Assembly (NCBI RefSeq): GCF_035621495.1
Contig: NZ_CP141821.1
Location: forward strand, 124,001 to 188,000
Length of the DNA stretch: 64,000 bases
Source: Thermococcus sp. SY098
GTDB lineage: Archaea; Methanobacteriota_B; Thermococci; Thermococcales; Thermococcaceae
Reading direction: 5' to 3'
Each line of letters opens with the position of its first letter. Position 1 is the first letter of the stretch. A model generated the notes under the pieces. That model worked only from the letters and a program-made list of their open reading frames with translations, ran no database searches and was not told where the DNA came from. Positions 53,743-61,795 of the stretch are shown piece after piece. A program made the position numbers and the translations under genes.

Positions 53743-53795
53743 GGGGATGATGCCTTCCGACGCTGAGGGATGATGAGTGGACGGCTGGCTGATCA
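53743..53795 (+). ncRNA. C/D box small RNA (2'-O-methylation guide)
   Basis: Ordered boxes: C (ATGATGC, 53747-53753, last base off consensus), 9-nt guide, D' CTGA (53763-53766), 3-nt spacer, C' ATGATGA (53770-53776), 12-nt guide GTGGACGGCTGG, D CTGA (53789-53792). Spacing is that of archaeal C/D RNAs. TTTAAAAA is centred about 26 nt before 53743. By the N+5 rule the D guide would direct methylation of the fifth base of CCAGCCGUCCAC, and D' of CGUCGGAAG. The end touches the stop codon of the convergent CBS gene. Confidence 0.65.
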
Positions 53796-54353
53796 CTTAA
53801 GCCGGAACAGGTCTGAGCGGGTTATTATCCCTACAGGCTTTCCCTCCTTGTTCTGCACAATAACCGCTGGATGCTCTTCAAGGAGATACTTAACGACCTC
53901 AATGTCTTCCTCCTCATTGACTATTGGAAAAGGCTCCTCCATGACTTCCATAGCTTTTCTCTCGTAGATGTCTTCATATTCCAGGCTCTTTCTCACAAGT
54001 GTTTTTTCAGTTACAGATCCGACAACTTTGTTTCCTGCAATCACAGGAACCTGGGATATGTTGTGTTCGTTCATCAGCTTGATTATCTTATCCACTTGAT
54101 CATACGGTTTAACAGCAATTATCGGAGAAGACATTACATCTTTAGCTTTCAACTGGGCTTTCTTACACTGAAGAAGGGCCTCAAGAATTCGATTAAAAGT
54201 TGAAAGTCTGGGATCAACTCTTCCACTTTCAAGCTTAGCTATATACGCTTGGGTAACACCTGCCCTTTTAGCAAGTTCCTCTTGAGTAATTCCAAGCTCT
54301 TTTCTGATTCGTCTTATCTCTCGCGGATCAATGGGGCGGGGAAGAATTACCAT
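53793..54353 (-). CDS. XRE-family helix-turn-helix regulator with two CBS domains
   Basis: N-terminal HTH (RIRKELGITQEELAKRAGVTQAYIAKLESGRVDP) and two CBS repeats (VMSSPIIAVKPYDQVDKIIK and VMEEPFPIVNEEEDIEVVKY). CBS pairs bind adenosyl ligands, so it may sense AMP/ATP or S-adenosylmethionine. Start ATG 54353 follows ACCGGTGGTTATT; a GTG at 54362 would be the alternative. TTTTATAATC on the minus strand at 54387-54396 is its promoter. 186 aa. Target genes unknown. Confidence 0.9.
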   Translation of the reverse strand: MVILPRPIDPREIRRIRKELGITQEELAKRAGVTQAYIAKLESGRVDPRLSTFNRILEALLQCKKAQLKAKDVMSSPIIAVKPYDQVDKIIKLMNEHNISQVPVIAGNKVVGSVTEKTLVRKSLEYEDIYERKAMEVMEEPFPIVNEEEDIEVVKYLLEEHPAVIVQNKEGKPVGIITRSDLFRLK

Positions 54354-54402
54354 AATAACCACCGGTTATTAAAATTAACTTTGGGGATTATAAAAGTTTT
54401 GA

Positions 54403-54565
54403 AATTGTGGGCCGGCAACAGAGACACCCCGCTCATGGCTCACGGGGGCGGATGCACCGGCCCTATGGGCTCGGCGTGAGCACACTCCGCTCATTGAGCC
54501 CGAGTTCTTGCGGAGGCGGGTTCGACCGAGCCCACGAGGGTACGAATTGTACCCTCGCTGTCGGC
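54403..54565 (-). ncRNA. H/ACA guide RNA, two pseudouridylation hairpins
   Basis: A GC-rich island read on the minus strand. After a 9-bp hairpin (CGAGGGTAC/GTACCCTCG, 54535-54557), hairpin 1 has base stem GGGCTCGG/CCGAGCCC (54526-54533 with 54467-54474) followed at once by AUA (54464-54466); hairpin 2 has GGGCCGG/CCGGCCC (54457-54463 with 54409-54415) followed by ACA (54406-54408). Each has an internal pocket and an upper stem with ATGAGCGG on its 3' side, the kink-turn/K-loop position. TTAAAT (54588-54593) is centred 26 nt before 54565. The plus strand lacks the ACA placement. Confidence 0.8.
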
Positions 54566-54596
54566 ATTAATAATTGGGATGATTGAGATTTAACCT

Positions 54597-55466
54597 TTAT
54601 GCTGTGCTTATCAATATTACACCAATCACTGCCATCACTAAACCGGTCAGAATCTTGCTGTTTGGAGGCTCTCTTAGAATAAGAATAGCCAAGGTCGCTG
54701 AGATAATCGGATTTATTGCCGTAATTGGAGCTGCAATTGGAGAACCGACCAAGCTAACTGCCTTCACAAATGAATACTGTCCAATGAATAAGCCTAAAAA
54801 CGCTGCTCCTGCTAATGCTGTTAATTCTCTTTTTGTAATTGTTTTTATCTCGCTTTCATATTTCTTGACAAATACGCTAATCCCCAAAGCAGCAAACATC
54901 ATCCTAAGCCCAGCCAATGTAAAAGGTGAAATTTGAGCAGAGAGCCATTCCATGGTAATTATGGCAAAGCTCCACGATAACGGAGCTAAGAGAGCAAATA
55001 TAAATCCTTTCATATCTAAATGCTCCTCTATTTCCCCCTGCCGTACAATTATAATAGCGAGGACTATTAAAAATGCACCGAATATTATCTGTGGGCTGAT
55101 ATTTCTTCCGAGAAACAAATATGCCCATAAAATTGCCCAGAGAGGATAAGATGAAGTTATGGGCACCGTCCTTGAAACACCCATGATTTTCATAGCGTTA
55201 AAGAAAAAGTAATCTCCGATAACAAACCCGAACTGGGCAGAGACAAATGCAACCATAAGCTGGAGGGGTGTTAAGTTTAAAACTTCCTCCCAGTTTCCAT
55301 TAACCGTAAAGAAGATTGCATAGACAACGGCAATAATGTAGAGCCTAACTATATTTACCGTTATGGCACCTTTGTTTTTCATGCTTATTTTCAACAGTAT
55401 TGAGGAGACTCCCCACCCAAACGCTGACAGCAGTGACAATATTACTCCGAACATCAACGGATTCAT
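54597..55466 (-). CDS. EamA/DMT-family transporter
   Basis: Ten hydrophobic helices in two homologous halves of five, as in the drug/metabolite transporter EamA family. Both halves are seen: LLSAFGWGVSSILLKISMKNKG in the first and LLAPLSWSFAIITMEWLSAQ in the second. 289 aa. The start ATG 55466 lies about 26 nt after TTTTTAAGC, giving a leaderless transcript. Substrate unknown. Confidence 0.9.
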   Translation of the reverse strand: MNPLMFGVILSLLSAFGWGVSSILLKISMKNKGAITVNIVRLYIIAVVYAIFFTVNGNWEEVLNLTPLQLMVAFVSAQFGFVIGDYFFFNAMKIMGVSRTVPITSSYPLWAILWAYLFLGRNISPQIIFGAFLIVLAIIIVRQGEIEEHLDMKGFIFALLAPLSWSFAIITMEWLSAQISPFTLAGLRMMFAALGISVFVKKYESEIKTITKRELTALAGAAFLGLFIGQYSFVKAVSLVGSPIAAPITAINPIISATLAILILREPPNSKILTGLVMAVIGVILISTA

Positions 55467-55552: not shown

Positions 55553-55612
55553 TCGGATGATGACCTCGGCAGAACTGAGCTCTGCAATGATGACGATCTT
55601 GAGTGCTGATAA
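55553..55612 (+). ncRNA. C/D box small RNA (2'-O-methylation guide)
   Basis: Perfect boxes: C ATGATGA (55557-55563), 11-nt guide CCTCGGCAGAA, D' CTGA (55575-55578), 8-nt spacer, C' ATGATGA (55587-55593), 12-nt guide CGATCTTGAGTG, D CTGA (55606-55609). TTTATAAG at 55526-55533 is centred about 26 nt upstream of the 5' end. Predicted targets are UUCUGCCGAGG (fifth base G) for D' and CACUCAAGAUCG (fifth base C) for D. Confidence 0.85.
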
Positions 55613-61597: not shown

Positions 61598-61626
61598 CAT
61601 CTTCACCAAAACTTGTTAGAGGAAAA

Positions 61627-61637
61627 AACTTAAAAAA
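61627..61637 (-). terminator. T-run terminator of the second H/ACA RNA
   Basis: On the minus strand TTTTTTAAGTTTTTTCC follows the AUA box directly, a typical archaeal termination tract. Confidence 0.5.
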
Positions 61638-61795
61638 TATGGGCTTGGCATATCCCACCGCCTTCATCGTCAGCCGTTGTCGGCTTTCCTCGAGCGGCCC
61701 CGGAGGCCAAGCCCTGTCTGCCCGGCATCGTCCCTCGCGCTCATAGCTGCCCAAACGCTCACGCGGTCGGGCCACCGGGCAGGGTCGGATGTCCA
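61635..61795 (-). ncRNA. H/ACA guide RNA, two pseudouridylation hairpins
   Basis: Second GC-rich island on the minus strand. Hairpin 1: base stem CTGCCCGG/CCGGGCAG (61775-61782 with 61718-61725) followed at once by ACA (61715-61717), kink-turn in GCTATGAGCGCG. Hairpin 2: base stem GGGCTTGG/CCAAGCCC (61707-61714 with 61641-61648) followed by AUA (61638-61640), apical stem AGCCG-ACAA-CGGCT. Then a T-run TTTTTT ends the gene. TTAAAATT (61816-61823) is centred 26 nt before 61795. Same two-hairpin plan as the RNA at 54403-54565. Confidence 0.85.

Follow-up and report, generated by a model that had tools for sequence, protein, structure and literature searches.

The HgcF (Pab35) H/ACA guide sRNA of Thermococcus sp. 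SY098 begins with a conserved 13-nt element complementary to the 23S rRNA of the same organism. The leader and the start of the first hairpin stem (GCCGACAGYGRGG) form 13 of 13 Watson-Crick pairs with 23S positions 2590-2602 (P. abyssi numbering is used here unless positions are referred to as own). This site corresponds to E. coli 2498-2510 and covers the peptidyl transferase loop together with the strand that forms the 5′ side of helix 90. Judging from the sequences, functional base-pairing of the leader with the rRNA is likely and, with a little less assurance, we consider that HgcF combines two canonical H/ACA units with a 5′ hairpin that serves as a third rRNA-binding element. The finding of HgcF in the window (the entire 64,000-nt stretch of DNA that was analyzed) is itself ordinary, as the gene is catalogued; what appears to be new is the conserved rRNA-antisense element in its 5′ hairpin.

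The RF00058 (HgcF/Pab35) covariance model matched on the minus strand with a score of 148.2 bits (gathering score 70, E 2.5e-34) and the full model (1-168) is covered. There is thus practically no doubt that the locus (Table 1) is a gene of this already catalogued family. The first-pass annotation, made from the sequence alone, proposed a double-unit H/ACA guide RNA between a CBS regulator and a transporter. This is borne out by the match and by the CBS-HTH and EamA neighbors, so that the earlier interpretation was partly right: it recognized the sequence and its H/ACA character and missed the known family. The terminal ACA ends at 54406, within the interval of 54403-54565 that was assigned to the RNA at that time.

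HgcF is present in one copy in this genome and is single copy in 91 of 94 Thermococcaceae genomes, including all 74 of those of good quality. We did not identify an RF00058 match in 21 further genomes of the phylum outside the Thermococcaceae. Within flanks of 700 bases only, a CBS-HTH gene is located 3′ on the same strand at 64 of 89 HgcF loci and an EamA-type gene is located 5′ on the same strand at 69 of 89. RNA-seq and target data are from the P. abyssi orthologue only, the transcript of which extends over 318,227-318,410 and begins 4 nt upstream of our match (PMC4652768); the match itself, at 318231-318398, agrees with the published position. The RNA in the window matches the HgcF/Pab35 family over its full length, 5′ hairpin included, and shares with P. 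abyssi the two H/ACA units, their targets and the minus-strand order upstream of the CBS-HTH gene. It differs from the family in having AUA in place of ACA after hairpin 2, and in a longer hairpin 1 (10 bp, with a UACAAUUCGUA apex).

Table 1. Features of the HgcF locus, in window coordinates.
Feature	Position	Strand	Remarks
EamA transporter	54597-55466	-	
TATA-like box TTAAAT, preceded by AAAGG (BRE-like)	54588..54593	-	about 25-28 bp upstream of RNA nt 1
HgcF/Pab35 H/ACA sRNA gene	54395..54565	-	Rfam RF00058
13-nt antisense element GCCGACAGCGAGG	54553..54565	-	perfect complement of own 23S 2596-2608
Hairpin 1 (5′ hairpin), 10 bp	54534..54558	-	MFE; compensatory changes
Invariant ACA, candidate ACA box of a half-guide	54548..54550	-	15 nt from RNA nt 1; lies within the loop/stem of hairpin 1 when the RNA is free
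Putative half-guide element as oligonucleotide			5′-GCCGACAGCGAGGGGACA
Hairpin 2 (Pab35.1), H/ACA unit with K-turn	54467..54533	-	predicted target own 23S U2678 = P. abyssi U2672; covariation
5′ guide of hairpin 2, GAACC	54519..54523	-	
3′ guide of hairpin 2, GCUCAC	54476..54481	-	within GUGCUCAC, the most conserved 8-mer of the RNA (100%)
ANA box of hairpin 2, AUA (ACA in most homologues)	54464..54466	-	15 nt from 3′ guide start
Hairpin 3 (Pab35.2), H/ACA unit	54409..54463	-	targets U2549 (published) and, by complementarity, probably U2697; covariation
Terminal ACA box of hairpin 3	54406..54408	-	
CBS-HTH regulator (CBS plus HTH_3)	53793-54362	-	

The gene lies in the strongly GC-rich island that was described earlier. 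GC content is 65% over 54401-54560, the maximum of a window that is otherwise of a 42% GC type (elsewhere mostly 35-50%, with one earlier bin of 55.6%). The minus strand has a minimum free energy (MFE) of -81.6 kcal/mol (z -4.6), and 0 of 200 shuffles are as stable. Its fold consists of three hairpins, with AUA after the second and ACA after the third, in agreement with the two pocketed hairpins followed by ANA that were described earlier. The plus strand is equally foldable (z -4.6), so fold energy does not give the strand and was dropped as an uninformative basis for assigning it. Assignment to the minus strand follows from the Rfam match, the ANA boxes, the K-turns, the TATA box and the published transcript of the orthologue in P. 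abyssi (PMC4652768). A TTTA centered 25-28 bp upstream of the conserved leader is present in 82 of 88 homologues (25-26 bp in 79 of these), and this genus has GGTTAAAT at that position. Just upstream of RNA nt 1 the sequence varies freely among homologues.

Hairpins 2 and 3 correspond to 35.1 and 35.2 of the three motifs (35.1, 35.2 and 35.3) into which Pab35 has been split (PMC4652768). In both, the ANA box is 15 nt from the start of the 3′ guide, which is the canonical spacing (14-15 nt, counted from the nucleotide adjacent to the target as far as the ACA; PMC4652768). AUGA is present at both expected K-turn places above the pockets, and at the sequence level the U-G-A of each is near-invariant in the alignment. 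The common sequence at these places, noticed previously, is ATGAGCGG (RNA nt 72-79 and 130-137). A check of the two hairpins for covariation, suggested by the first-pass annotation, gave a clear result: in 88 aligned homologues, 94.3% of the cells of the hairpin 2 and 3 stems are paired and 12 pairs are changed on both sides (74 such cells). These values were reached by 0 of 500 shuffles, and slid controls drop to 31-54% paired.

Pocket complementarity was scored against the rRNAs of the genome itself. The top-scoring target of hairpin 2 is own 23S U2678 (cgugagc[UG]gguuu). For conversion to P. abyssi numbering, offsets of 0-89 were compared; only 26 gives U at seven or more of the eight published modified or tested 23S positions, and with this offset U is found at all eight (PMC4652768). 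Own U2678 is P. abyssi U2672, the exact published target of Pa35.1 (Pa35.1-L2672), and the 3′ guide of hairpin 3, CUCUGUU, pairs with AACAGAG just before U2549, the exact published target of Pa35.2 (L2549) (PMC4652768). It is almost certain that the canonical targets of hairpins 2 and 3 are those published for P. abyssi. The hairpin 3 pocket also fits own U2703 (P. abyssi U2697) with 6+6 bp; U2697 is probably a further target, predicted here from complementarity. We envisage hairpins 2 and 3 as canonical K-turn units that would act with L7Ae, Cbf5, Nop10 and Gar1, hairpin 2 directing pseudouridylation of U2672 and hairpin 3 that of U2549 and probably U2697, all around the peptidyl transferase center. 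U2672, U2549 and U2697 correspond to E. coli 2580, 2457 and 2605, all of which are pseudouridines in bacteria, and to T. kodakarensis 2676, 2553 and 2701.

The 5′ hairpin was previously described as an unusual extra hairpin of 9 bp without an ANA. The hairpin exists and there is no ANA at its 3′ foot, but the MFE structure has 10 bp, and the hairpin is part of the Rfam model and is present in all but one of 89 homologues with a readable 5′ end, so it can hardly be called unusual. Compensatory changes include C-G to U-A at nt 9 (25 sequences) and a U-A/G-C exchange at nt 15. As a simple 10-bp hairpin that lacks a pocket, a K-turn and an ANA at its foot, it was rejected as a third canonical H/ACA unit. 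In the literature searched we found no function for it.

The start of the RNA, GCCGACAGYGRGGGKACA, is gap-free in 88 homologues. Approximately nt 1-7/8, the leader, are unpaired in the fold of the RNA itself, and nt 9-13 are in the hairpin-1 stem. Conservation of the leader GCCGACAG is 99.6%, exceeded only by that of the invariant 8-mer of hairpin 2 (the mean for 8-mers is 88.6%). Also invariant are A16, C17 and A18, and columns 1-18 have no gaps in the 88 sequences; the distance from G1 to this ACA is 15 nt. Leader and hairpin 1 have been lost in one homologue only (L092, G046:C7:6595-6748, from a genome that is 74% complete), where a TATA box, GTTTTAAAT, occurs directly before hairpin 2. This shows that leader and hairpin 1 are a separable module that is not essential everywhere.

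The segment of 23S rRNA opposite the antisense element is identical in all seven of the 23S sequences examined. Because the rRNA is invariant, a covariation test of the leader:rRNA duplex is ruled out, and for a compensatory test in outgroups that differ in this rRNA segment, RF00058 gave no match in any of the phylum's 21 other genomes. Among the 88 homologues, pairing is kept by 45 of 46 changes (C-to-U opposite G or A-to-G opposite U), and the remaining, pairing-breaking change affects one sequence at its first base. Base pairing within the hairpin would equally permit the changes at nt 9 and 11, so independent weight falls on the 8-nt leader only, which has two pairing-compatible deviations and one that is incompatible (88 sequences).

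When the 33-nt hairpin-1 region was shuffled 5000 times, 11 of the shuffles gave an rRNA match of at least 13 nt. With the 181-nt RNA as a whole, 38 of 2000 shuffles (about 2%) reach 13 nt, and for this reason the match taken alone is modest. Four of 3000 dinucleotide-shuffled rRNAs reach 13 nt, and this particular 13-mer occurs in 0 of 3000. With one mismatch allowed, the 13-mer is found only twice in the genome, once within HgcF and once antisense to the 23S gene. It is present in 88 of 94 genomes of the family, usually twice (HgcF and 23S), with a reversed control near zero.

The first-pass annotation suggested that the hairpin may protect the 5′ end. More broadly, hairpin 1 could serve only in end protection, or in RNP assembly or transcription start, with the rRNA match being due to chance. 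The compensatory changes in hairpin 1 are consistent with this, as are the fraction of whole-RNA shuffles that reach 13 nt and the proximity of nt 1 to the start of transcription (TATA 25-26 bp upstream; P. abyssi transcript beginning 4 nt upstream, PMC4652768). However, such a role has no need for a fixed leader, an invariant ACA or a fixed 15-nt spacing, and the unpaired leader is the second most conserved 8-mer of the RNA while the sequence upstream of it varies freely. Furthermore, the rRNA strand that is matched is the one paired with the strand of the RNA's own target, and the match lies directly beside a pseudouridine that has no known guide. End protection leaves the invariant, unpaired leader with its match to 23S rRNA unexplained and is the weaker reading. 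We consider it unlikely that this, together with a chance match, is the full explanation; the 5′ hairpin is probably not just a means of protecting the end.

Invasion of hairpin 1 by the rRNA would be energetically favored according to the predicted energies, which are -27.4 kcal/mol for the leader duplex vs. -17.5 kcal/mol for hairpin 1 at 37 °C, and -9.6 vs. -4.9 kcal/mol at 85 °C. We propose that the unpaired leader acts as a toehold on 23S rRNA, and that strand invasion of hairpin 1 would then produce the 13-bp duplex with 2590-2602. The duplex would capture the 5′ side of helix 90, whose opposite strand includes U2672, and the helix could in this way become open to hairpin 2. In predicted folds of rRNA fragments, own 2605-2610 pair with own 2674-2679 (helix 90), and U2678 (= U2672) is in the latter strand. 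Thus, each of the two 8-mers with the highest conservation in the sRNA is complementary to a different strand of helix 90. A 160-nt rRNA fragment folds own 2596-2606 against own 2578-2588, a non-native alternative.

The leader:rRNA duplex may be a chaperone or accessory contact only, which opens helix 90 or a local misfold and guides no modification. Hairpin 2 would in this way reach U2672, and hairpin 3, with a U2549 duplex of one base pair on one side, would be held in place. Capture by the leader of the 5′ strand of the pairing that encloses U2678 fits such a role, and the leader would also prevent the non-native fold. The 3′ duplex of Pa35.2-L2549 is indeed one base pair (PMC4652768), and yeast snoRNA chaperones with antisense elements are known (snR190, snR10; PMC8536666). 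The invariant ACA and its 15-nt spacing are, however, left unexplained, and as an account of the duplex in full we find the contact-only role possible but somewhat doubtful.

The antisense element ends at C2602 and the next base is U2603. Given the 15 nt from G1 to the ACA, it follows from the H/ACA spacing rule that U2603 would be the target of the leader. Psi2603 (T. kodakarensis 2607) requires Cbf5 and Gar1, not Nop10, in vivo; no guide has been assigned and the modification was reported as guide-independent (PMC6138745). The leader may direct Psi2603 as a half-guide without an upper stem. The intermolecular duplex would take the place of the lower stem, with U2603 at its end and the ACA, 15 nt away on the guide strand, on the PUA domain of Cbf5, a domain that binds either an ACA box or the CCA end of tRNA (PMC7991803). 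The geometry would be that of an H/ACA 3′ half or of the tRNA T-arm/acceptor stem and, as there is no upper stem, there would be no need for L7Ae or Nop10.

At the level of sequence, a 3′ guide paired directly 5′ of the target U and an ACA 15 nt downstream are both present and both conserved. The same 15-nt register yields the known targets of hairpins 2 and 3, and the predicted target is exactly the U that is Cbf5- and Gar1-dependent and Nop10-independent (PMC6138745). Against a half-guide, Cbf5-Gar1 modifies U2603 of a 22-nt rRNA fragment in vitro with no guide present (PMC6138745), and modification at this position is therefore not strictly guide-dependent. In addition, the ACA is hidden by hairpin 1 in the free RNA. 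The leader may be dispensable at U2603, or needed only on structured 23S rRNA, and there could be another reason for the invariant ACA. We know of no structural precedent for a half-guide that lacks the upper stem, and guidance of Psi2603 in this way is rather doubtful. Correspondingly tentative, and on balance rather unlikely, is the view that HgcF has a third, upper-stem-less guide that places the leader on 2590-2602, presents the ACA to Cbf5 and forms Psi2603 without L7Ae or Nop10. The same degree of caution applies to the idea that a half-guide of this type is an intermediate between guided H/ACA and stand-alone, tRNA-type pseudouridylation. Guiding of Psi2603 and opening of helix 90 are not exclusive.

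Psi2585, an orphan that lies 5 nt upstream of the antisense site, requires an RNA as well as L7Ae, Cbf5, Nop10 and Gar1 (PMC6138745). Guidance by the leader would require CUCGG of the hairpin-2 stem on 2577-2581, with U2585 opposite invariant A18. This register was rejected, CUCGG being replaced by CCCCG in three homologues (L086-L088), and U2585 was not explained by the HgcF leader in any register tried. A box C/D guide was also rejected, as no CUGA follows the 13-nt antisense element and there is no C/D match at the HgcF locus.

In the guide-independent formation of tRNA Psi55 by Cbf5, the substrate is a 12-bp coaxial stem with the target 3′ of one strand. As in the proposed duplex, the other strand supplies a CCA or ACA for the PUA domain; the tRNA arrangement is intramolecular, whereas HgcF would form an intermolecular sRNA:rRNA duplex (13 bp plus 2 nt plus ACA). 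The H/ACA-like sRNAs of Pyrobaculum resemble the proposed HgcF half-guide in being incomplete H/ACA RNAs that rely on the target for part of the structure. They are without the lower stem and keep the K-turn hairpin, whereas the HgcF leader would be without the upper stem and the 5′ half. The eukaryotic chaperones snR10, snR30 and snR190 make antisense contacts with rRNA for folding rather than, or besides, modification, as proposed here for HgcF, and snR10 is also a Psi guide at U2923 of 25S rRNA. They are not homologous to HgcF: snR30 and snR10 function in 40S biogenesis and snR190 is a box C/D RNA. Unlike in these RNAs, the HgcF element is in a separate 5′ leader/hairpin.

If the element is real, the leader would offer an in vivo partner for Psi2603, and HgcF would be an archaeal H/ACA RNA that remodels the peptidyl transferase center while modifying it. 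T. kodakarensis is tractable and a working CMCT-RT assay exists for exactly these 23S positions (PMC6138745). The natural deletion of leader and hairpin 1 in L092 is a possible test case.

Also encoded in the window is a second known H/ACA sRNA, HgcE (Pab105, RF00060, 98.4 bits; 61621-61752, minus strand), approximately 7 kb from HgcF and on the same strand. Weak HgcF matches about 7 kb from HgcF in three other genomes (G014, G032 and G061) suggest that the HgcF/HgcE spacing is kept there. A similar antisense element in HgcE was considered and rejected, as the longest rRNA match is 11 nt and is in a hairpin apex, not in a leader. The box C/D sRNA sR5 (RF01304, 41.5 bits) was identified at 53744-53793 on the plus strand, flanked by the CbiZ gene on one side and by the convergent 3′ end of the CBS-HTH gene on the other. 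At 55553-55612 on the plus strand there is a candidate box C/D sRNA that scores below threshold (snoPyro_CD, 27.1 bits, gathering score 45), in the gap that separates the EamA gene from the next gene on the minus strand. A TTTTATAA box (54388-54395, minus strand) is located between HgcF and the start of the CBS-HTH gene, which suggests that the regulator is expressed from a promoter of its own rather than by simple read-through from HgcF.
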